Assembly: GCA_028864885.1 (NCBI GenBank)
Contig: JAGWLR010000023.1
Coordinates: forward strand, 1 to 42,298
Length of the DNA stretch: 42,298 bases
From: Burkholderiales bacterium
Lineage (GTDB): Bacteria; Pseudomonadota; Gammaproteobacteria; Burkholderiales; Burkholderiaceae_C
Reading direction: 5' to 3'
Under the pieces are notes generated by a model. The model was not told where the DNA came from, did not search any database, and saw only the letters and a program-made list of their open reading frames with translations. Positions 4,061 to 42,298 of this stretch are shown piece after piece; position 1 is the stretch's first letter; every line of letters begins with the position of its first letter. Position numbers and translations under genes: made by a program.

Positions 4061-4232
4061 CTTCTACGGCCTCGCCGCACAGCCCGGGATTCTATCGAGC
4101 CCCATCCCCACCCCCTCGTTAGGCCCCTTAATGACGCGGCCCTTGAGCCAACTCAAGCCCCAATCGAGCCCGAGAGATTAGGCTGCGAAGCGCTGTTGTC
4201 ATCCACTTCTTTGTTGTTTGTTGAGGTCTGCC

Positions 4233-4712
4233 ATGCCGCTCGTCTGGTCCGAAGCTCTGTCTCTCGAAATGCCCGCGATGGACCGTCTGCACGAAGACAT
4301 GATTGATCAGTTGGCACTGGTGGAAACCGCCAGCGATGAGCAACTGCTCGAAGCGTGGCAGGCGATGATCGAGCACACCGCCATCCACTTTGCGGAAGAG
4401 GATCAGTGGATGCAGGCCACCGGATTTGCACCCGACAACTGCCACAGCAGCCAGCACGCCATCGTGCTCAAGATCATGCGCGAAGGCGCTGAAAAATGCG
4501 CCAAGGGTGATCTCGCCATCGTGCGTCAGATGGCCTATGAGCTGACCGTCTGGCTACCGCACCATGTGTCGGCCATGGATGCAGGCTTGGCCTTGCATCT
4601 CAAAAGCGTTGGATTCGACCCAGAAACCGGACGGATCGACAATCCTGAAGCGCTCCCCACCAGCACGGTCACCAGTTGCCGCGTCGAGCCCTGCGAGGAT
4701 CACGCGGCCTGA
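4233..4712 (+). CDS. Bacteriohemerythrin-type diiron protein
   Basis: Hemerythrin-domain proteins bind O2 or other small molecules at a non-heme diiron centre in a four-helix bundle. In this 159-residue protein the ligand pattern is visible: H20 (DRLHEDM), H48 and H52 with E56 (HTAIHFAEED), H71 and H75 (CHSSQHA), H110/H111 and D116 (LPHHVSAMD). The ATG at 4233 follows GAGGT. No sensor or output domain is fused, so it is a stand-alone hemerythrin; oxygen storage or delivery is an inference. It ends one base before the dxs stop codon on the other strand, at a tandem duplication. Confidence 0.88.
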   Translation: MPLVWSEALSLEMPAMDRLHEDMIDQLALVETASDEQLLEAWQAMIEHTAIHFAEEDQWMQATGFAPDNCHSSQHAIVLKIMREGAEKCAKGDLAIVRQMAYELTVWLPHHVSAMDAGLALHLKSVGFDPETGRIDNPEALPTSTVTSCRVEPCEDHAA

Positions 4713-4725: not shown

Positions 4726-6624
4726 GTTAAGCTGGCCCTTCATCTGGTCCAGTCGCTCACGAATCGAGCGCTCGATGCCGGCTGCATCCAGCCCGCTAAG
4801 AGACAACAACTTGCCGGGATCACCGTGCTCGATGAACTGATCGGGCAGGCCCAGCATGGCCACCGGCACGGTGACGCCAGCTGCCGACAGGGCCTCGCTC
4901 ACGGCAGACCCTGCGCCACCCGCGACGCATCCCTCTTCAACCGTGACCAGCAGGTCATGGTTCCGCGCCAACTCCAGCACCAGATCGGTGTCCAGCGGCT
5001 TGACAAACCGCATGTTGGCAACCGTGGCGTTGAGGCCCTCACCAGCCGTCAGCGCGGGATACAGCAAGGTACCAAAGGCCAGAATGGCAACCTTGGGGCC
5101 GACGCCAGGCTGGCGATGACGGCGCACCTCGCCCTGCCCCCAGGGCAGCGGCGTCAGGTCGGCCTGCACGGCCACCCCTGCCCCAGCGCCACGCGGGTAA
5201 CGAACCGCGACCGGGTGATTTTGCTGATGTGACGCGGTCAGGGCCTGACGCAGTTCGTTCTCATCGGCCGGCGTCACCATGCTCATGTTGGGGACGCAGC
5301 GCACAAATGCGATGTCAAACGCCCCCATGTGCGTGGCGCCATCGGCCCCCACGATGCCCGCGCGGTCCAGTGCGAACACCATAGGCAGGTTCTGCAAGGC
5401 CACGTCATGAATCAGTTGGTCGTAGGCGCGCTGCAAAAAGGTCGAATAAATCGCCACGACCGGCTTCAGCCCTTCACAAGCCAGGCCAGCCGCAAAGGTC
5501 ACCGCGTGTTGTTCGGCGATCCCGACGTCGAAATAACGCCCCGGGAAGCGCTGTTCGAACTCGACCATGCCCGAGCCTTCACGCATGGCTGGCGTGATGC
5601 CCACCAGGCGTGAATCGTGTGCGGCCATATCGCACAACCATTGCCCGAAGACCTGGGTGAACGTGGGTTTGACCGGTTCAGTGGCCGGAACCTTCTTGAG
5701 GCCGACGGCCGGATCAAACTTGCCCGGCCCGTGATAGGCAATCGGGTCGGCTTCGGCCAGCTTGTAACCATAGCCCTTCTTGGTGACGACGTGCAGGAAC
5801 TGCGGACCATGGCGATCGCGCAGGTTCTCCAAAGTCGGGATCAGCGAGTCCAGGTCGTGGCCATCGATCGGGCCGACGTAATTGAATCCGAACTCCTCAA
5901 AGATCGTGGCGGGCACCACCATGCCCTTGGCGTGCTCTTCCAGTTTCTTTGCCAACTCGAACAAAGGCGGAGCATTGCGCAACACTTGCTTGGCGCCTTC
6001 GCGAGCTGCCGCGTAGAAGCGACCTGACATCAACCGGGCCAGGTATCGATTGAGCGCCCCCACAGGTGGCGAAATCGACATGTCGTTGTCGTTGAGGATC
6101 ACCAAGACATCGGCCATGCGTCCGTTGTGCGGCACCCCTGCGTTGTTCAGGGCTTCAAAGGCCATGCCAGCGGTCATGGCACCATCGCCGATGATGGCCA
6201 CGGACTTGCGAGACTCGCCGCGGATCTGGGCGCCAATGGCCATGCCCAGGGCCGCCGAGATCGAGGTCGACGAGTGCGCAGTGCCGAAGGTGTCGTACTC
6301 GGATTCGTCTCGACGCGGAAAGCCACTCATGCCCCCAAACTGGCGCAACGTGGGCATCCGATCGCGACGCCCGGTGAGGATCTTGTGCGGATAGGTTTGG
6401 TGGCCCACGTCCCACACCAGGCGATCATCCGGCGTGTTGAACACGTGGTGCAAAGCGACGGTCAGCTCCACGGTGCCCAGGTTCGATGACAGGTGCCCGC
6501 CCGTGCGCGACACGCTTTGCAGCAGGTACTCACGCAATTCGTCAGCCAGCTGCTTGAGTTCGGCACGCGCAAGGCGACGCACATCGGCAGGCGACTCGAT
6601 CCGGGACAACAAGGGATACGTCAT
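4714..6624 (-). CDS. dxs: 1-deoxy-D-xylulose-5-phosphate synthase
   Basis: Dxs condenses pyruvate and glyceraldehyde 3-phosphate to DXP with thiamine diphosphate, the entry step of the non-mevalonate isoprenoid pathway. The protein (636 residues from ATG 6624) has the normal length. Visible are [18 protein letters not shown], the ThDP-binding [18 protein letters not shown], and the transketolase-type [17 protein letters not shown] with the catalytic glutamate. An ATG 15 bases upstream (6639) is possible, but 6624 gives the usual [18 protein letters not shown] start and has GGA seven bases before it. It is the last gene of the xseB-ispA-dxs operon, 33 bases after ispA, so the enzyme for the first step is co-expressed with farnesyl diphosphate synthase. 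Confidence 0.97.
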
Positions 6625-7590: not shown

Positions 7591-7850
7591 GGCGTATCCA
7601 GCGGCTTGAGTTGCCCGGCATCAAGCAGCTTGACTTGCGCCTCGACGGCCTCTAATCGACCACGGCAAAACTGCAGCAGCTGGGCGCCGCGCTGATAACT
7701 GCTCAACAACTGCTCCAAGGGCAACTGACCTGCCTCCATTTTGGCGACCAGGGTTTCCAGTTCTGCAAGGGCCTGCTCGTAGCTAAGATCGGGCGACAGC
7801 CCGTTCTCGACAGCAGTTTGTTTTCCGACGGAGGCAGACGATTTGGCCAT
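7587..7850 (-). CDS. xseB: Exodeoxyribonuclease VII small subunit
   Basis: XseB is the small subunit of exonuclease VII, which degrades single-stranded DNA together with XseA. The 87-residue length is typical. The family core is seen as [33 protein letters not shown], here spanning about residues 23-55, followed by a helical segment [16 protein letters not shown]. It heads the ispA-dxs operon, the widespread xseB-ispA-dxs order. xseA is not in the window. The 224-base region to the divergent Rieske gene must hold the promoters of both. Confidence 0.95.
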
Positions 7851-8074
7851 GATGGCGCCCGATTTTCGGGTTTCGAGGGCAAACGTGTATTCTATTTCGG
7901 CAGGGCCTCAAAAACCATCTCGACCGCAGCTTCAACGCTCCGAACACGCCCCCGGTCTGGGTGGTCCGTTCAGCAAAGTCAATTGGGCCGGCGCACCACC
8001 GGGTACAATCATGGGTTTCCCCGCGGTATGGGTCTGCGGGGGGTTGACATTGGTTTTTGGAGATCCTGGGGATC

Positions 8075-9196
8075 ATGTCTGACCTGAGTCATGCGCTCAC
8101 TCTTGCCCGCAGCCGCACGCAGCTGCCTGTGTCCGTCTATTTTGACGAACTGCTTTACAAGAAGGAGATAGAGCGCATCTTCCAGTCCGGTCCACGCTAC
8201 CTGGGGCATGCCAATGCGGTGCCCGAGGTTGGCGACTACTACGCGCTTCCACAAGAGGGTGAAGGCCGCGCGCTCGTTCGCACCCCAGATGGGGTCGAAC
8301 TGATCTCGAACGTCTGCCGGCATCGCCAAGCCGTGATGCTCAAAGGCCGTGGCAACAGCCGTCACAACATCGTGTGTCCCCTGCATCGCTGGACCTACAG
8401 CCACAAAGGCGAGTTGATCGGGGCCCCGCACTTCGATCACGACCCCTGCCTGAATCTGAACAACTACAAGATTCAGAACTGGAACGGTCTGCTGTTTGAA
8501 GACAATGGCCGTGACATCTCAGCGGATTTGGCGGGCGTCAACAACCGCTTTGCCCCAGGTGGAGACCTCGATTTCAGCGGCTACGTGCTCGACAAGGTCG
8601 AACTGCACGAGTGCAACTACAACTGGAAGACTTTCATTGAGGTCTACCTTGAGGACTATCACGTCGGCCCCTTCCACCCTGGCTTGGGCAATTTCGTGAC
8701 CTGTGATGACCTGCGCTGGGACATGGCTCAGGAGTACTCGGTGCAAACCGTGGGGGTTGCCGCCACGTTTGATCGCCCCGGCTCGGACATCTACAAGAAG
8801 TGGCGCGAGGTGCTGTTGAAGTACCGCGGCGGCGAAAAACCGGCGCAAGGCGCCGTGTGGCTCACTTACTACCCTACCATGATGGTGGAGTGGTATCCAC
8901 ATGTGCTGGTGGTGTCCAACATGTATCCACAAGGGCCCCAGAAGACCCTCAACGTGGTCGAGTTTTATTACCCCGAAGAAATCGTGGCGTTTGAACGCGA
9001 GTTCGTCGAAGCGCAGCAGGCCGCTTACATGGAGACCTGCATCGAGGACGACGAAATCGCCGAGCGCATGGACGCTGGCCGCAAAGCCTTGATGATGCGC
9101 GGCGACAACGAGGTGGGCCCCTACCAAAGCCCGATGGAAGATGGCATGCAGCACTTCCATGAGTGGTACCGCCGGACCATGGCCTTCAAGGACTGA
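8075..9196 (+). CDS. Rieske non-heme iron oxygenase, alpha-subunit type
   Basis: Rieske oxygenases use a [2Fe-2S] cluster and a mononuclear iron to hydroxylate or demethylate small organic substrates. The 373-residue protein has the Rieske ligands C81, H83, C101 and H104 (CRHRQAV and CPLHRW). The catalytic-domain pattern EVYLEDYHVGPFHPGL places iron ligands at H196 and H201, with D194 likely bridging the centres. The ATG at 8075 is preceded by GGGGAT; a TTG 18 bases upstream is less likely. No reductase, ferredoxin or beta subunit lies nearby, so the electron donor must come from elsewhere. The EamA permease gene starts 10 bases later and probably shares the transcript. The substrate cannot be named. 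Confidence 0.9.
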   Translation: MSDLSHALTLARSRTQLPVSVYFDELLYKKEIERIFQSGPRYLGHANAVPEVGDYYALPQEGEGRALVRTPDGVELISNVCRHRQAVMLKGRGNSRHNIVCPLHRWTYSHKGELIGAPHFDHDPCLNLNNYKIQNWNGLLFEDNGRDISADLAGVNNRFAPGGDLDFSGYVLDKVELHECNYNWKTFIEVYLEDYHVGPFHPGLGNFVTCDDLRWDMAQEYSVQTVGVAATFDRPGSDIYKKWREVLLKYRGGEKPAQGAVWLTYYPTMMVEWYPHVLVVSNMYPQGPQKTLNVVEFYYPEEIVAFEREFVEAQQAAYMETCIEDDEIAERMDAGRKALMMRGDNEVGPYQSPMEDGMQHFHEWYRRTMAFKD

Positions 9197-9206
9197 GGCC
9201 CAGCAG

Positions 9207-10130
9207 GTGCACACAGTCGGTCGGCTGATCAGCAAACTGTCAGCCGCCTGGCTGATGGTCCTGGCCACCCTGCTCTTTGCTGGCATGGGGGTCTGCGTCA
9301 AAAAAGCCTCTGCCGAGGTCACCACGGCAGAGGTTGTTTTTTTTCGGGGCCTGGTGGGCGCGGTCATGATGGGCCTGCTGGCCTGGTGGCAAGGCTTGAA
9401 CCTGCAGACCAAAGTGCCCAGCCTGCACTTTCTGCGTGGCTTGGCTGGCGTCAGCGCCTTGAGCCTTTGGTTCTACACGATCGGCAAGCTGCCGCTATCC
9501 ACCGCGGTGACGCTGAATTACATGTCGTCGGTCTGGATGGCGGTGTTCCTGGTGTTGCGTCAGCTGTGGCGCCGCAGTCAGGGTCGTCCTAGCAAGCGCA
9601 CTCCCCCACCTTTGCTGGCAGCCGTTGCGTTGGGATTCATTGGGGTGGCCTTGGTTCTGCGGCCCACCATCCAGCGCGACCAGTGGCTGGAGGGAGGGAT
9701 CGGCATCCTGTCAGGCATGTTATCGGCCTGGGCCTATCTGCAAGTGGCCAGCCTGGGACGGGCAGGTGAACCCGAGCACCGGGTGGTGTTTTATTTCTCG
9801 CTCTTCGGGACCATTGCCGGGTTGCTGATCAGCCTGGCCGCCCGCCTCAGTGGTCACGTGGCCTGGACCGCCCCAAGCCCCACTGGGTGGCTCTGGCTTC
9901 TGGGCATTGGTGGCTTCGCCACCCTGGCTCAACTGGCCATGACCCGCGCCTACACACAGGGGCAGGCCCTCGTGATGGCCAGCCTACAGTACCTGGGCAT
10001 CGCCCACGCGTTCGTGCTGGGGGTGTTGTTGTTCAACGACCCGATCAATCCGCTGTCCATATTGGGCATGGGCTTGATTGTGGCGGCCGGTATCGGCGCC
10101 ACGCGAACCAGCAACGCCGTCCGAGATTGA
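9207..10130 (+). CDS. EamA/DMT-family permease
   Basis: Drug/metabolite transporter proteins of the EamA type export or import small metabolites through ten membrane helices arranged as two repeats. About ten hydrophobic segments are visible in the 307 residues, with the repeat hallmarks FFRGLVGAVMMGLLAW in the first half and GGFATLAQLAMTRAYTQGQ in the second. The likely start is GTG 9207, preceded by GAGG that overlaps the stop of the Rieske gene; the frame is open further upstream inside that gene. The tight spacing suggests co-transcription with the oxygenase, so it may move the substrate or product of that enzyme, which is an inference. Confidence 0.88.
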   Translation: MHTVGRLISKLSAAWLMVLATLLFAGMGVCVKKASAEVTTAEVVFFRGLVGAVMMGLLAWWQGLNLQTKVPSLHFLRGLAGVSALSLWFYTIGKLPLSTAVTLNYMSSVWMAVFLVLRQLWRRSQGRPSKRTPPPLLAAVALGFIGVALVLRPTIQRDQWLEGGIGILSGMLSAWAYLQVASLGRAGEPEHRVVFYFSLFGTIAGLLISLAARLSGHVAWTAPSPTGWLWLLGIGGFATLAQLAMTRAYTQGQALVMASLQYLGIAHAFVLGVLLFNDPINPLSILGMGLIVAAGIGATRTSNAVRD

Positions 10131-36924: not shown

Positions 36925-36952
36925 GCCTGCCACTCACTTTCAATTCAACACC

Positions 36953-37078
36953 ATGGAATCCTCAGTTGCCCCACCATCCGCGCCCCTCGAAGAAGCCACG
37001 TTTGGAGCCGGTTGTTTCTGGTGCCACCAATCCTTCTTTTACTTTTTATACTTAAAAATCAACAATTTAAGTTTTTGA
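36953..37078 (+). pseudogene. msrA: 5' fragment of msrA, broken after the catalytic motif
   Basis: MsrA reduces methionine-S-sulfoxide in damaged proteins. From ATG 36953 the frame reads a short leader and then EEATFGAGCFWC, the MsrA active-site start with its nucleophilic cysteine. The sequence then stops looking like MsrA (HQSFFYFLYLKINNLSF) and hits a stop at 37078. An earlier in-frame ATG at 36923 is possible but overlaps the gcdH start. Of a protein normally near 170-210 residues only about 24 remain. Base composition changes at the same place, about 37025-37040, so this is where foreign DNA or another contig is joined. Confidence 0.85.
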
Positions 37079-37176
37079 CAGAAGGCTTTTGCCAAATTTT
37101 TGTCAAATTTTGAACCTGTTCTAGCTCACTCACGATTAGGAAGAGCGGCAACCTCCCGCACCAGACGGCGGACCCC
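37032..37176. other. Gene-free stretch just inside the junction
   Basis: This is AT-rich to 37130, then a short GC-richer patch up to the tetR promoter. No convincing gene is present. On the minus strand one frame ends RRLVREVAALPNRE at a stop near 37130, which might be the tail of a lost gene, but it is too short to support. No insertion-sequence end or target duplication was found by eye. Confidence 0.4.
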
Positions 37177-37222
37177 TTGATCAAAACGAAACGATACCGT
37201 ATAGTCTCGCTATAACGAGACT
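37177..37222 (+). promoter_or_regulatory. tetR promoter with overlapping operator
   Basis: TTGATC (37177-37182) and TATAGT (37200-37205) are 17 bases apart, a good sigma-70 promoter. The inverted repeat AGTCTCG-CTATAA-CGAGACT (37203-37222) overlaps the -10 and start region. This is a typical place for autorepression by the TetR protein encoded 38 bases downstream. Confidence 0.65.
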
Positions 37223-37260
37223 TTGGGGTTTCGCTTTGTTTAACTTGGAGGGTGTTGGCA

Positions 37261-37941
37261 ATGGTCAGAGTGAAGACCGCTGCACGTCGTGAAGCTATCT
37301 TGGCAGCAACCAAGCAAGTCTTTCAGGACATGGGGTATGACAGGGCTTCTATGGACGAGGTAGCCGCTCGCTTTGGTGGCTCTAAGGCGACTGTTTACCG
37401 CTATTTCGGCAGCAAGGAAGCACTGTTCAAAGAGCTAATCAGCCGAACCGCTAATGAAATGGGCGGCGGTATGGATTTGCTTCTCAAGAGCATGGGCATA
37501 AAGGCTCAGGAAGGGCAGCTTCCCGACCATGCCATGCAAATTCTTTCACTGCTTGACCCTAACCGCGACGTTGAAAGCACACTGCGAATCTTGGGCCGTG
37601 AAGCCTTGAAGAAGGGGCACACACCGGAGCAATTCGCAGGAGCACGAATGTTGGTTGCAGCAGCAACCGATCCAGAGGTGGGCCGAATCTTCTATGAGCA
37701 AGGTATTGGCCGAGCGGTCAAGTTCCTTGAGCATTATTTTGAGAAAGTCATAGAAGCTGGACAAATTCGCCCAGCCGATCCGGTCATTGTTGCTCGCCAC
37801 TTCCATGCATTGCTTGACTCCGAGGTGTTTTACCTTGGGTTATTCAATATCAAGACCACTCTTTCAGACTCCTACATTGAAGAAGTTGTAGATAGAGCGG
37901 TGGATATTTTTCTCAGAGCATATAAAAACCCTTCTTCCTAA
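37261..37941 (+). CDS. TetR/AcrR-family regulator (AefR-like C-terminus)
   Basis: The 226-residue protein has a TetR helix-turn-helix (MDEVAARFGGSKATVYRYFG at about 32-51) and a helical ligand domain resembling AefR-type regulators (GARMLVAAATDPEVGRIFYE). ATG 37261 is preceded by GGAGGG at proper distance; an in-frame GTG at 37252 lies inside that site. It has its own promoter with an inverted repeat. mipA follows 51 bases later without its own clear promoter, so the regulator most likely controls both. The ligand is unknown. Codon use is intermediate between the GC-rich left part and the AT-rich rep/mob genes. Confidence 0.88.
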   Translation: MVRVKTAARREAILAATKQVFQDMGYDRASMDEVAARFGGSKATVYRYFGSKEALFKELISRTANEMGGGMDLLLKSMGIKAQEGQLPDHAMQILSLLDPNRDVESTLRILGREALKKGHTPEQFAGARMLVAAATDPEVGRIFYEQGIGRAVKFLEHYFEKVIEAGQIRPADPVIVARHFHALLDSEVFYLGLFNIKTTLSDSYIEEVVDRAVDIFLRAYKNPSS

Positions 37942-37992
37942 TCCACTCAATAGACCGTGGCCTGTTCTCCCATCATCTGAAAGAAAGCAATT

Positions 37993-38754
37993 ATGAAAAT
38001 TTCATTCTCCAAAACTGCGGGCATGGCAATTGGCATGAGCATTATTTGCTCTTCCGTATTCGCTCAAAGCAATTCTAGTGAATCGCAATGGTCGCTAGGT
38101 GGTGGATTAATAACCAAACAGAAAGTCTATCGCGGGATTGACCGTGATAATTTCGTCTTGCCTCTTTTGAGTTATGAAAATAAATGGGTCAGTATCGGAG
38201 TCCCAAAGGCTGACTTGAAGCTTTATGAGCCCAACGATTCATTGTCCTTCCGTCTCCGTGCTCGTTATGATGGTGACGGCTACGACCCGGAGGATTCGGC
38301 CTTTCTGTCTGGTATGGAAAAACGCAAGAGCAGTGTTTGGGTAGGCGGTGCTTTCATTTGGAAAAACGATTTTGCTAATGTCTCGGCTGAATTGCTCCAC
38401 GACGCACTAGGTAACAGCAAGGGAACAAGGGCCAGCCTTCAGGTTGATCGCCGTTTTGGTTTTGGCAAACTCGGACTTACACCCCGTATTGGTGTTGAAT
38501 GGTATGACCGCAAGTTTGTGGACTACTACTATGGTGTCCGCACTTCGGAGGCGACTGCTGGCCGAAGTGCCTATCAAGGTGATTCCACGACAGCACTGGA
38601 TATTGGCTTGCGGTTAGATTACAGCCCTGCCCGACAGCACACCCTATTTCTGGATGTTGGAGCCAAGAGGTTCGGTAGTGCTATCAAGGATAGTCCGATT
38701 GTGGAGAAAGCTACTCAAACCACAGTGGGGATCGGCTATCTGTATCGGTTTTGA
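37993..38754 (+). CDS. MipA/OmpV-family outer-membrane protein
   Basis: The MipA/OmpV family comprises outer-membrane beta-barrels; MipA itself links peptidoglycan enzymes, others change envelope permeability. The 253-residue protein has a signal peptide cleaved after VFA (residue 24). It then shows alternating beta strands, family patterns such as WSLGGGLITKQKVYRGID and LRARYDGDGY, and a C-terminal Tyr-Arg-Phe (YLYRF) typical of outer-membrane insertion. It is followed by a terminator, which closes the tetR-mipA unit. As cargo on a mobile region it may affect antibiotic or stress tolerance, but this is an inference. Confidence 0.85.
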   Translation: MKISFSKTAGMAIGMSIICSSVFAQSNSSESQWSLGGGLITKQKVYRGIDRDNFVLPLLSYENKWVSIGVPKADLKLYEPNDSLSFRLRARYDGDGYDPEDSAFLSGMEKRKSSVWVGGAFIWKNDFANVSAELLHDALGNSKGTRASLQVDRRFGFGKLGLTPRIGVEWYDRKFVDYYYGVRTSEATAGRSAYQGDSTTALDIGLRLDYSPARQHTLFLDVGAKRFGSAIKDSPIVEKATQTTVGIGYLYRF

Positions 38755-38776
38755 GCGACACCCATGCAAAAAAGAG

Positions 38777-38804
38777 AAAGCCAGTCATGTGACTGGCTTT
38801 TTTC
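38777..38804 (+). terminator. Terminator after mipA
   Basis: AAAGCCAGTCA-TG-TGACTGGCTTT is a perfect 11-base stem followed by TTTC, 23 bases past the mipA stop. It ends the tetR-mipA transcript. Confidence 0.85.
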
Positions 38805-38898
38805 TTCCCAAAAGATAAGCACCGACTAAGGGGCTTTACTTTTTCGGTTTTTCTGCTTGAATATGAATTGACAAAATTAATTACAAGGAGAAGAACCT

Positions 38899-39561
38899 AT
38901 GTCATATAAGATAGAAAAAAATCACCCCCCTGTCAATAGCACAGACAAAGAACTTGATTATTTCTCACTCAATAAACGAGTATTCAAAGAGCTACGAAGC
39001 AAAGGCACTCTGCTAAACATTATGTTGGAGTTTGCCTGCAAATGCACCTATAAAAATGGTCTTGTAGGTATCCATAGCGAAATCACGAAATACAGTCTTG
39101 CAAAAGATTTAGGTATTGATAAAAACAATCTGAACAAATACCTTAAGCAGCTTGAAGAAATGGGTTTCATTAAGGTGTTCAATGTGAACCCCTTTATTCT
39201 GCAAGTTTTGGAGGTGCCACAGGCTCCACACTTCAGCGACATTAAATCAGTTCTATTGTCTGCACTCGTGGAACCACAGCTTTATAACTTCCATAGAAAT
39301 CTCAAGCGAAAGGCTGCATTCTTCCAAGCCTTCAAGAAATACGACGACCAAATCAAGCAGGAAAGAATGAAAAGGGCAGAGGTAAAAATCAAGACAGAGG
39401 AACCAGATAAGGACAATCCATTCAATGACTCTTTTTATAGCCAAAATGAGCAATCCAACGACACCCAAGGCAAAGAGCCATTGAATGAACAACCCATTCA
39501 AAAACCACCACTAGAGCACACATTAGACGAACTCAATCAAGAACTTGGCTACTCACAATGA
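38899..39561 (+). CDS. Probable plasmid replication initiator (winged-helix Rep, pBBR1-like)
   Basis: The 220-residue protein has a winged-helix core at about residues 30-110 (SEITKYSLAKDLGIDKNNLN, then YLKQLEEMGFIKV). A segment after it, SDIKSVLLSALV, resembles the matching place in the 220-residue Rep of pBBR1. The C-terminal third is polar and low-complexity. AAGGAG precedes the ATG at proper spacing. Six iteron-like repeats follow within about 220 bases of its stop, which fits an initiator with its origin. Identity to pBBR1 Rep is low and judged from memory, so an alternative is a plasmid regulator of another kind. Confidence 0.6.
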   Translation: MSYKIEKNHPPVNSTDKELDYFSLNKRVFKELRSKGTLLNIMLEFACKCTYKNGLVGIHSEITKYSLAKDLGIDKNNLNKYLKQLEEMGFIKVFNVNPFILQVLEVPQAPHFSDIKSVLLSALVEPQLYNFHRNLKRKAAFFQAFKKYDDQIKQERMKRAEVKIKTEEPDKDNPFNDSFYSQNEQSNDTQGKEPLNEQPIQKPPLEHTLDELNQELGYSQ

Positions 39562-39960
39562 AGAACCGCGAAAGGGGTTTTTTAATACCCTAATAGAAAG
39601 AATCATTCACAAGTCAAGAGATAAAAATTCCTTACCCCCATTCTCTACCCCCATAGAAGCATTGATTTACAAGGCTTCAGGTCACTGCCTTACCCCTATG
39701 CCTTACCCCCATTGAAAAAAGCCTTACCCCCATAGGAACATTGAAAAATCAATAGTTCACAATATGAGCTTACCCCTATTTTTGGTATGTTTGATAAAGA
39801 ATGTCTGACATTCCGCGGGATATATAAAGCATTGCTACATACATAGAATATTAATCATTGATTATCAGAGAATGGATAAACACCACTAAAAAGAAGAATA
39901 GAAATAATTTCCCCGCACGGAAAATTTCACCAAAACGAGCTTACCTCTGCACTACCGTGA
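39562..39960. other. Gene-free AT-rich region, candidate oriV
   Basis: About 400 bases without a supported gene, between the Rep-like gene and the RHH gene. They contain the six CTTACCCCYAT repeats, a possible DnaA box, and AT-rich DNA (for example around 39785-39870) that could melt. A 65-codon frame at 39858-40055 overlaps the RHH gene and has no convincing features. Confidence 0.5.
39631..39779 (+). repeat. Six direct repeats CTTACCCCYAT (candidate replication iterons)
   Basis: Copies of the 11-mer start at 39631, 39644 (TCTACCCCCAT), 39689, 39702, 39723 and 39769. All are in the same orientation, with starts 13, 45, 13, 21 and 46 bp apart. They lie between the Rep-like gene and the RHH gene in AT-rich DNA. 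A DnaA-box-like TTATCCATT (39871-39879, minus strand) follows. The arrangement is that of an iteron-type origin. A seventh, poor copy may lie at 39940. Confidence 0.65.
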
Positions 39961-40221
39961 TCAGATTTTGTCCCAAGGCATTTCTTCCCTTGGTGCTTGC
40001 CTTTGGAATTCTTCCATCATTTTGGCTAAATCCTGATCGGCTACCGCTGCATTGACTTCCTGAGCTGTGGCGGTAGGCAACTGCTTATTGTCTAAATTCT
40101 TCAAGAACCCGCCGACGATTTTTCTAAGCAACCAGGCAAGACTTTGTTCGTTTTGGCTGGCAATGCCTTTTAATCTCTCCAAATCTTGATCGTCAAAAAA
40201 CACATTTGTTCTATTCTTCAT
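39961..40221 (-). CDS. Ribbon-helix-helix DNA-binding protein
   Basis: The 86-residue protein has a ribbon-helix-helix pattern at its N-terminus: TNVFFDDQDLERLKGIASQN, then SLAWLLRKIVGGFLK (residues 5-42), followed by an acidic tail. The start has GGAGAAAG just upstream. RHH proteins are plasmid repressors, antitoxins or partition proteins (CopG, ParG). No toxin gene is beside it. Its promoter region is the nine-dyad array that it shares with the divergent mob genes, so it probably binds there; this is an inference. Confidence 0.75.
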   Translation of the reverse strand: MKNRTNVFFDDQDLERLKGIASQNEQSLAWLLRKIVGGFLKNLDNKQLPTATAQEVNAAVADQDLAKMMEEFQRQAPREEMPWDKI

Positions 40222-40236
40222 TCTTTCTCCTGTCTA

Positions 40237-40478
40237 TGAACACTTGTATTCACGATACAAAGCGAAGAACAAAAAACAAGCAGCCTTTGCTATCGAACTC
40301 GACACAGATATTCAAAAATAACACCTGTATTCATGACACCACAAGTATTCAATCAGAACACAAGTATTCACATTGAACACCTGCATTCAAAACACCTTGA
40401 ACATCTGTATTCAATCGCCTGTTTTTGACCTTGAACACAAGTATTCAAAACCATTTCTTGAGTGAATACATATATTCA
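40237..40478. repeat. Array of nine 16-bp dyads, consensus TGAACACNNGTATTCA
   Basis: Near-palindromic units start at 40237, 40299 (degenerate), 40319, 40336, 40355, 40374, 40398, 40432 and 40463. GTATTC of the right half is the best kept part; the last copy TGAATACATATATTCA has near-perfect symmetry. Spacings in the middle are 17, 19, 19 and 24 bp. The array fills the divergent gap between the RHH gene and mobC, next to the oriT-like repeats. Confidence 0.85.
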
Positions 40479-40543
40479 TTGCTTAAAACCGTGGACTTTC
40501 TCTTTTCTTTTGCTAGGATAAATTGGTAGAAAGCAAGGCCCTT

Positions 40544-40605
40544 CTTTCAGCAATCTAAATCGAAATTTAGATTGTGAAAGAACCCTTGTTAGGGCTTTGC
40601 CCTAA
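40544..40605 (+). other. Candidate oriT with two inverted repeats
   Basis: The first repeat is CTTTCA-G-CAATCTAAAT, loop CGAA, then ATTTAGATTG-TGAAAG (40544-40580). The second is TTAGGGC-TTT-GCCCTAA (40589-40605). They lie 42 bases before mobC. Stem-loops just upstream of mobC and relaxase genes are the usual site of oriT in small mobilizable plasmids. The nick position cannot be given. Confidence 0.55.
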
Positions 40606-40646
40606 GACCCTAAAAAAGAATAACAAGAAAATAGGAGAAAAGAGCC

Positions 40647-41030
40647 ATGCAAAAAGAGCTTAAACAAAAAACAGGTCGCACCAATGACGACCACCAGTTC
40701 AAAAGAACAATCAACTTCAACCTAAGACTTTCACCCGTTGAGTATGAAAGCATTGTTCAGCAATGGGAAAAATCCGCCTACAACTCAATGTCTCGTTATG
40801 CTCGTGCTTGTGTCTTTGGCGAAGAAGACAAGATAGAGATTCACCTAGAGCAGAAGCAAAAAGAGAAATTAAACCGCCTGAAAATTTTTGTTGAGATTAA
40901 CCGCATAGGTCACAACCTTAATCAGCTTACCAAGCAGATCAATTTTCAATATGCTTTCAAAGCTAAGGACTTGATCGAGGAACTGGCCCATATCAAAGCA
41001 GAGCTAGAAAAAATTGTAGGAGTTATCTAA
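40647..41030 (+). CDS. mobC: Mobilization accessory protein MobC
   Basis: MobC-type proteins bind oriT and help the relaxase open the DNA. The 127-residue protein has an N-terminal RHH-like part (TINFNLRLSPVEYESIVQQW, then SMSRYARACVFG) and the family-typical VEINRIGHNLNQLTKQIN at about residues 90-107. AGGAG stands nine bases before the ATG. The stop codon is immediately followed by the ATG of the relaxase, so both are translated from one mRNA. Confidence 0.8.
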   Translation: MQKELKQKTGRTNDDHQFKRTINFNLRLSPVEYESIVQQWEKSAYNSMSRYARACVFGEEDKIEIHLEQKQKEKLNRLKIFVEINRIGHNLNQLTKQINFQYAFKAKDLIEELAHIKAELEKIVGVI

Positions 41031-42298
41031 ATGATTAACCTACAAATGCCACAAGGCAAAAACAATGCGAAGAAAGCCGCCGCCTATCTGCTATCCGATA
41101 CCGACCACACAGGAAAGACAAGAGCCGTAAAGCCTGAAATCCTGGACGGCGACCCTCACCTAGTCGCAGAGATTTCCAACAACACCACAAGAGCAAAAAA
41201 GTATGTTTGTGGCTGTTTGTCTTTTCGTGATAACGAACACCCAACACCAGCACAGCAGAAAGCCGTAATGGACGAGTTTGAACAAACCTTTCTGCCTGGA
41301 CTTGAGAGGAACAAGAACTATGCAATTGCTTGGGTTGCCCATAAAGACAAAGGTAATCTTGAGTTGAACTACTTTCTTGCCATGACTGAATTAACCACAG
41401 GAAAGCAGCTCAATGCCTTTCCCCCTGACAGTATTTATTATGACTTGAATGATGCATGGGTTCAGAACATGAACGACAAGCTAGGCTATCAGCAAGTCAC
41501 AAAAGACCCCTTGACGATTTATCGCTCAAAGTTTGAAACCAAGATACTGCCATTGAAAGAGCTAGGCTCTGAAATCTGCAAGCAGGCAACAACTCATAAG
41601 CAAATCAGGGACGACCTAGAGGCAGTTTTCAAAGAAGCTATCGTTAATGGTCAAATCACAAACAAAGAACAAATCATTGACGAATTGAAGAAGTTAGGTT
41701 CAATCACAAGAACCGGTCAAAATTATGTTTCGTTCATTCCAACCGGTGAAGCTAAGGCTATCCGTTTAAAAGGCTCAATGTTCAAACAGGATAGCGATTA
41801 CAAGCAGCTTGTTAATGAATTCAAAAGCATAGGCACAAAGAAGCAGCTATCGCCTGATCAAGCCAAGAAGAACGAAGCCACCATAGAAAGGTTGAAGAAA
41901 GTTCGTGGCGATTTTTTCAAATCACTGTATGAACCAAAGCAAAAACAGGTTCGCCGTTTTGGTCCAAAAAAAGCACAGCCAAAAATCAAGATCAATGTTG
42001 AGCAGCCAAGGCAAGAGCCATTGAAAGAGCCAGCCATTAAAGGCACCGGTCAGCAGAGCAAACCTAAGCAGCAGAACGAAGAACAACCTAAGCAGCTTGA
42101 GCAGCAGGTTTTAAGCAAAGCACCAGCAGCACAAGACAAAAAGGCAGACAGTGGTAAAAACTCCAATCCTGTTATCTCTGCATTTTCTAAAATCGCCACA
42201 GGGGTTAAGGCGGATTTCTTCATAATCAAAATCAACCACTTGTTAAGTGCTCAAAATGCTTTACTGTTAAAAATAGGCTCATTGAATATGTTTAAGGA
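41031..42298 (+). CDS. mobA: ColE1/HEN-type relaxase MobA (3' end cut by window edge)
   Basis: The relaxase nicks oriT and pilots the strand during conjugative mobilization. The frame is open through the right edge for 422 codons, so the end is missing. The catalytic Tyr19 lies in KKAAAYLLS. Motif III is HKDKGNLELNYF, where H104, E111 and N113 replace the usual three histidines; this H-E-N set marks the ColE1 MbeA group (MOBP5). TELTTGKQLNAF follows as in that group. The region from about 290 is Gln/Lys/Pro-rich, a linker to a lost C-terminal part. AGGAG lies eight bases before the ATG. Confidence 0.85.
   Translation, partial: MINLQMPQGKNNAKKAAAYLLSDTDHTGKTRAVKPEILDGDPHLVAEISNNTTRAKKYVCGCLSFRDNEHPTPAQQKAVMDEFEQTFLPGLERNKNYAIAWVAHKDKGNLELNYFLAMTELTTGKQLNAFPPDSIYYDLNDAWVQNMNDKLGYQQVTKDPLTIYRSKFETKILPLKELGSEICKQATTHKQIRDDLEAVFKEAIVNGQITNKEQIIDELKKLGSITRTGQNYVSFIPTGEAKAIRLKGSMFKQDSDYKQLVNEFKSIGTKKQLSPDQAKKNEATIERLKKVRGDFFKSLYEPKQKQVRRFGPKKAQPKIKINVEQPRQEPLKEPAIKGTGQQSKPKQQNEEQPKQLEQQVLSKAPAAQDKKADSGKNSNPVISAFSKIATGVKADFFIIKINHLLSAQNALLLKIGSLNMFK

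Follow-up and report, generated by a model that had tools for sequence, protein, structure and literature searches.

A candidate RHH regulator gene and its nine-dyad array beside the probable oriT of an integrative mobilizable element in msrA

Beside the probable oriT of an integrative mobilizable element in a Burkholderiales bacterium, we identified an array of nine 16-bp imperfect dyads which, together with an adjacent small gene (39961-40221, minus strand), probably forms a cognate RHH/operator cassette with two roles, self-repression and control of the mob promoter. Dimers of the RHH-like protein would bind the 16-bp sites, probably cooperatively on five near-contiguous ones. Because the two proposed promoters lie near dyads 1 and 9, we propose that the protein both represses its own gene and sets the mob operon: site 1 overlaps the start of the proposed rhh promoter, which suggests self-repression, and site 9 abuts the proposed mobC promoter, so that the complex would set, and most likely lower, mobC-mobA expression and hence transfer. 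Activation of mobC is a further possibility, since sites whose centres lie about 20 bp ahead of a -35 element can activate as well. Gene and sites would be exchanged as a unit between related elements. Judged from sequence, a regulatory role for this gene and array is likely.

The window, i.e., the whole stretch of 42,298 nucleotides that was analyzed, is one entire contig (C193) of a 3.54-Mb genome in 194 contigs. Its G+C content, taken in 2-kb steps, was 0.57-0.645 up to 36 kb and fell to 0.405 in the final step. The msrA frame MESSVAPP...ATFGAGCFWC (36952-37023) reaches about 37023 and is followed by foreign sequence. When this msrA stretch was searched in 30 genus relatives, five matched; the junction was reached in three of them (G326, G301 and G323), and msrA was intact there. 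The other end was found on contig C98 (L056, about 4890-6433), which carries a full msrA whose first part differs (MENQQDIKLETITLGGGCFWC...); divergent to it is the gene for a 453-aa tyrosine integrase (PF00589, E 2.7e-14). Past the integrase, the end of C98 contains sequence matching residues 463-502 of the relaxase of a Snodgrassella locus (L015). The L015 integrase is 94.9% identical to that of C98 and is accompanied by a similar msrA start, whose frame is not continued as msrA. A third locus, in Andreprevotia chitinilytica (L016), has an integrase that matched neither the C98 nor the L015 integrase at E 1e-3; with its different recombinase-like gene and its position next to tRNA genes (7662-9179 and 9273-9348), L016 indicates that the integration module has been exchanged too.

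These features identify the AT-rich block, by its gene content and junctions, as an integrative mobilizable element with about 5.3 kb in the window (left part, 37023-42298, plus strand) and about 2.2 kb on C98; the unseen gap between the two contigs is estimated at some 15 codons of mobA. From both junctions, the element seems to insert at the GCFWC codons of msrA, near 37023, and to supply a new 5' end, such that a full-length msrA frame persists. It has an integrase, msrA junctions, an MbeA-like relaxase and an oriT, and its excision and transfer are predicted. In agreement with the preliminary description, which had noted the absence of a ParA-like gene from the window, neither the window part nor the C98 right end showed one, and Pfam scans of the eight named ORFs on either side of the unseen gap gave no ParA and no T4SS match. 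We rejected a plasmid reading, as the block meets chromosomal DNA within msrA and has its second end on C98. A chimeric contig is unlikely, because both junctions lie on the same GCFWC codons and L015 has a similar msrA start beside its closely related integrase.

The gene order of the element is TetR-family gene, MipA-family gene, P0004, iteron-like repeats, P0001 (minus strand), array, mob promoter/oriT, mobC and mobA. The TetR-family (TetR_N in Pfam, E 7.6e-17) and MipA genes (37252-38754) are probable cargo, and a dyad before the TetR gene, AGTCTCG-N6-CGAGACT (37203-37222), is a candidate TetR site. DNA of the TetR/MipA region is 73% identical to Sphingomonas plasmid NC_007353.2. P0004 (38899-39561, plus strand) is a winged-helix protein, 58% identical to an L015 relative over 168 aa. 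It is followed by iteron-like repeats, TTACCCCYAT (39632-39780, plus strand), some units of which are 13, 58 and 21 bp apart, among other steps. After the P0004 relative, L015 has units of another sequence (CAACCCGACA; 4185-4290) in the same 13-, 58- and 21-bp steps. Since P0004 and its relative are each followed by repeats with shared steps, P0004 is likely a replication initiator, and since these repeats are tied to P0004, its iteron-like sites would be distinct from the nine dyads. The putative rep gene and its repeats may let the element replicate when excised.

The array occupies exactly 40237-40478 (242 bp), between an RHH-like gene and mobC, both of which diverge from it, as described previously. 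Counting both strands, the window contains 16 matches to pattern TGAACACNNGTATTCA with up to three mismatches (expected, 1.84), a number reached by none of 100 shuffles. Fifteen of these fall on the nine places of the array, six of which match on both strands, and the sixteenth is outside it at 39185. The nine sites reported earlier were thus recovered, but they are not uniform copies of the 16-bp consensus: two are exact, three have one mismatch, two have two and two have three. Eight of the nine fit better in plus orientation, and the copy at 40463 fits equally both ways. In this orientation, ATTCA at positions 12-16 is invariant in all nine dyads; the left half is variable, and 3-6 of 7 base pairs are palindromic. 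The 9-mer TGTATTCAA occurs eight times in the 425-bp intergenic region (one mismatch allowed, both strands; shuffle mean 3.35, with 0 of 100 shuffles reaching eight). In the organism's own genome, the dyad was found in 19 places at up to two mismatches, and all five with at most one mismatch are in this array.

Centre spacings along the array are 62, 19, 18, 19, 19, 24, 34 and 31 bp. Dyad 1 (TGAACACTTGTATTCA; 40237-40252) is 16 bp from the RHH start codon and overlaps the last base of the proposed rhh -10 element. Dyads 2-6 (starts 40299, 40318, 40336, 40355 and 40374; 40299-40389) are near-contiguous, with centres 18-19 bp apart. They are followed by dyad 7 (40398-40413), dyad 8 (40432-40447; exact consensus) and dyad 9 (40463-40478), all written on the plus strand. 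The array begins at the proposed rhh start and stops 12 bp short of the proposed mobC -35 element. Against the proposed cassette is the fact that nine sites exceed the need of two promoters.

The gene at 39961-40221 encodes P0001, an 86-aa protein that we propose as an array-binding autoregulator. Its assignment as RHH is tentative and derives from sub-threshold matches and a poor model. Residues 4-36 matched RHH_5 in Pfam weakly (E 0.0012; 19 bits, with a cut-off of 26), and the P0001 profile aligned with the RHH parts of ParG (1p94, E 0.69) and PutA (2ay0, E 1.1), with unrelated chains scoring better. The predicted structure is poor (pLDDT 50), with helices at residues 11-23 and 25-44. By sequence, the nearest named RHH is the N-terminal autoregulator domain of PutA (NCBIfam, E 0.002), which differs from P0001 in being part of a large enzyme. 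The proposed rhh promoter (40252-40279, minus strand) was found by eye and consists of a -35 element TTGTTT (40274-40279), a 16-bp spacer and a -10 element TATCGT (40252-40257); a similar stretch was seen, also by eye, in L016. A consensus promoter scan of 39500-41100 gave no promoter-like sites, fewer than in shuffles of the same region, and both the rhh and the mobC promoter are proposed from conservation and position. A role of P0001 as antitoxin of a toxin-antitoxin pair found no support: there is no minus-strand ORF of at least 60 aa between 39501 and 39961, where the iteron-like repeats lie.

On the other side of the array, a proposed mobC promoter, GTGGAC-17-TAGGAT (40491-40519, plus strand), is conserved in L015, L016 and a further locus, L048. 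It is followed by a probable oriT (40533-40604, plus strand) with a long inverted repeat and a second hairpin, TAGGGC/GCCCTA, the hairpins beginning 55 bp past the last dyad. The position of the array beside a probable oriT agrees with the first description. Folding of this segment had a z score of -3.84, and none of 200 shuffles folded as well. In an alignment of four sequences, 5 of 18 predicted pairs were changed on both sides and 7 were broken in at least one sequence; the covariation term was only -0.38. No nic site was located in the probable oriT. Two plus-strand mob genes follow. The first, mobC (P0002, 40647-41030), encodes a NikA-like relaxosome protein (E 1.8e-11), and the second, mobA (P0003, 41031-42296), is cut by the contig end and encodes a relaxase similar to MbeA of ColE1 (Relaxase in Pfam, E 9.5e-6; MbeA model NF047848 in NCBIfam, E 1.6e-29, under its cut-off). 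In ColE1/MOB_HEN relaxases, an H-x6-E-x-N motif replaces the histidine triad and is combined with an N-terminal catalytic Tyr; H104, E111, N113 and Y19 of P0003 fit this type.

One further motif, GCTATCGA, occurs once in the window's array (40289-40296, plus strand). It was found at 4992 and 5231 in L015 and at 5213 and 5423 in L016, flanking the array on both sides, and at 6113 in L048, upstream of the mob promoter. As it stands beside arrays whatever their repeat sequence, it could be a cassette boundary or the site of another protein.

In the collections searched, P0001 had one strong relative, the 74-aa product of the L016 gene (65% identity over 63 aa). The N-terminal RTNVFF, which is expected to be the DNA-reading strand, is identical in the two proteins. 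The L016 gene is in the same place, divergent from mobC, and its intergenic region contains dyads of 22.7 and 18.0 bits and two weak ones of 10.5 and 5.8 bits; the best score was reached by none of 200 shuffles. In a matrix-free count, the L016 repeats were not above shuffles (15 of 100 and 35 of 100 had as many). We dropped the idea that a 62-bp spacing of the first two sites is conserved between the window and L016, since the alignment pairs window site 2 with the L016 site at 5223. A matrix scan of seven other regions left five without a site over 7 bits. L022 had one site of 9.9 bits, reached by 2.5% of shuffles, and L015 had one of 14.5 bits (5511-5526), reached by none of 200, though the P0001 gene is absent there. 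This L015 site sits in a separate small ORF between the L015 oriT and mobC; as an unexplained match, it counts to some degree against gene and array being strictly paired.

L015 and L016 are closely related in their mob regions, with 95.4% identity in MobC, 83% in MobA and 90.7% over 182 bp of promoter and oriT DNA. Across the RHH gene and array, blastn of L015 against L016 gave no match at E 1e-3. In this position, L015 carries another putative RHH gene, together with repeats resembling AATCAGATT in eight places (0 of 100 shuffles had as many). MobA of the window is only 50% identical to that of L016, yet the RHH gene and dyad are common to both. The MobA tree groups L015 with L016 (96/84) and places the window outside this pair, and the supported branches force at least two changes of P0001 type; on the same tree, the two-row label was indistinguishable from shuffled labels (500/500). 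Because the window and L016 share gene and dyad, and both are different in L015 despite near-same mob genes and oriT, the pairing of array and RHH gene assumed in the preliminary description is supported indirectly. In this sample of one shared pair and one contrast, the array appears to go with the RHH gene and not with MobC or MobA. The swap could be a replacement of a larger segment.

The same comparison bears on which protein binds the array. MobC, the putative Rep, the TetR regulator or a host factor could do so, but we consider such a binder very improbable. MobC is itself NikA-like, 16-bp dyads suit many HTH dimers, and L015 has its 14.5-bit site without the P0001 gene. However, MobC is 95% identical in L015 and L016 while the arrays differ, P0004 and its L015 relative are each accompanied by separate repeats, a different dyad precedes the TetR gene and the 12 loci searched contained no TetR relative, and outside the array the genome has the dyad only in versions with two mismatches. 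That TetR and P0004 have other candidate sites (the dyad before the TetR gene and the iteron-like repeats) in turn favors the cassette of P0001 and its operators.

In logic, the nearest known system appears to be SmpO of staphylococcal plasmids of the pWBG749 family. SmpO is reported to be an RHH protein encoded beside oriT, and its cognate sites have been exchanged with it against transfer-gene phylogeny (PMC8136818). Exchange of this kind was also found here, for one shared pair and one contrast and with a putative RHH: the type of RHH gene does not follow the MobA tree, a small RHH-like protein is encoded beside oriT, and protein and sites appear to move together. The array might thus be an oriT specificity site, and the RHH protein might be an additional accessory factor of the relaxosome, labelling the cognate oriT for the relaxase, in which case a swap would switch mobilization specificity. 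With the array 55 bp from the oriT hairpins this reading has some appeal, but we regard it as rather unlikely: a NikA/MobC-like accessory protein is already encoded beside a conserved oriT, promoter and oriT are 91% identical in L015 and L016 while the arrays differ, and the sites are upstream of the proposed mob promoter and outside the hairpins. In the SmpO system, there are two short sites per oriT, inside it, and smpO is between oriT and the relaxase gene (PMC8136818), whereas here nine 16-bp sites lie upstream of the proposed mob promoter, the gene is divergent and a separate MobC is present.

The preliminary description also proposed segregation and transfer control by a single protein, similar to StbA of R388. 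In this scheme, an RHH-array complex would distribute excised replicating copies and hold transfer down. StbA is reported to act on repeats beside oriT (two sets of five 9-bp repeats), to lower transfer and to stabilize the plasmid without need of the ParA-like StbB (PMC3098194). The element resembles it in having a repeat array around a promoter beside oriT, one small protein (here the predicted binder) and transfer control (here likewise predicted); in addition, no ParA match was found among its ORFs, and a putative rep gene with iteron-like repeats is present. The omega protein of pSM19035, an RHH ParB acting on parS heptads, offers a further likeness in combining an RHH protein with a repeat array, and activation of ParA by such a ParB is reported to require four or more sites in a contiguous row (PMC9499535); five are near-contiguous here.

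Several observations make the segregation scheme quite improbable. Because the element is integrated in the chromosome, segregation is less pressing. In L016, the gene is retained although only two sites are strong and two more are weak, and the RHH-like gene of L048 is not accompanied by a significant repeat; the supposition that nine copies are needed was not supported. Pfam and NCBIfam scans gave no StbA-like match for P0001, and no partner ATPase is known. The systems also differ in organization. StbA belongs to a stbABC operon with ParA-like StbB, and it uses 9-bp direct repeats on a plasmid (PMC3098194), in contrast to the integrated element. Similarly, omega has a ParA partner and contiguous 7-bp heptads (PMC9499535), and no ParA was found here; for a ParABS system with RHH ParB, a ParA ATPase gene would be in the same operon, and the Pfam scans of the eight ORFs gave none. 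The proposal of a segregation system was unsupported.

One strong relative of P0001, that of L016, emerged from the datasets searched. Plasmids, whose search had been suggested, gave no match in tblastn. Scans of genome_contigs and viral_contigs with P0001 were also negative, the former being insensitive as it missed L016, which is in that collection; a double-dyad pattern scan of viral_contigs found none either. In genome draws, which overlap, P0001 was detected in 2 of 299 genomes of the family (its own and a weak, partial match, E 2e-4), 1 of 369 of the class and, at a stricter E 1e-4, 1 of 398 of the phylum, the single genome being its own in both cases. In the order, 8 of 399 genomes matched: its own, G794 (the L016 contig by coordinates) and six weak ones. 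Among these six matches, two fall within long open frames (1332 and 1373 aa), lengths that fit PutA, and the two that were read are small RHH-like genes without a recognizable mob gene within 1.5 kb.

With the MobA pair, a pattern-based scan of genome_contigs yielded 11 loci. When 399 genomes of the order were searched by profile, 10 contained matches, 11 in all (9 in 8 without the genomes of the window and L016). Loci of a second MobA clade (L017, L018, L020, L021, L022, L024 and L025) have other RHH-like genes, one or two each, opposite mobC. Counting repeats de novo in 10 RHH-mobC regions (L021 was left out, and the distant MobA matches L051-L055 were unscored for arrays), we found 4 of 10 above all 100 shuffles with 9-mers (window, L015, L018 and L020) and 5 of 10 with 12-mers (L024 added); repeats of L016, L017, L022, L025 and L048 did not exceed all 100 shuffles in this test. 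No RHH-like gene facing mobC was seen in L047, L049, L050 and L063 within about 1-1.2 kb, considering minus-strand ORFs down to 45 aa, and L019 and L023 are cut too short to judge. In L018 (Janthinobacterium), three 32-nt TCATGTCGCATAGACACATGTATGTCGCATGA-like units, exactly 67 bp apart, were observed by the RHH-like gene and mobC (4857-5022). In L021 (3053-5989), several tandem genes of repeated HREDGPA-type units are present between mobC and mobA; such a gene is single in L020 and L024.

For L015, L017-L025 and L048, the term RHH-like is our reading of a sequence pattern: Pfam gave no RHH match for eight proteins of the divergent genes. A predicted structure for the RHH-like genes of the other clade had a pLDDT of 68, and its four PDB matches included none at E 0.001. 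Profile comparison of the P0001 group with the RHH-like group of the other clade found nothing.

Integrative mobilizable elements are described as widespread and poorly studied (PMC5704250, PMC7563843). Among the papers listed for RHH proteins in connection with oriT, partition or mobile elements of the mobilizable kind, and for msrA insertion, StbA and MOB_HEN, no title or abstract opening described this family. The ColE1 MbeCA module is similar in that an MbeA-like relaxase gene follows a NikA/MobC-like gene; an RHH gene with an array opposite mobC is not known from ColE1-type systems.

A bolder idea, which we put forward as a long shot, is that RHH gene and array form an exchangeable identity cassette of MbeA-type elements. 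The cassette alone would set incompatibility, copy distribution and transfer of the excised form without ParA, and it would be swapped while oriT and mob genes are kept, so that elements escape each other. The sister elements L015 and L016, which have near-same oriT and mob genes and different regulator/array cassettes, provide a natural experiment on whether such cassettes serve regulation, oriT specificity or segregation. If it were true that the cassette sets element identity, this might account for the coexistence of closely related elements within a single cell.
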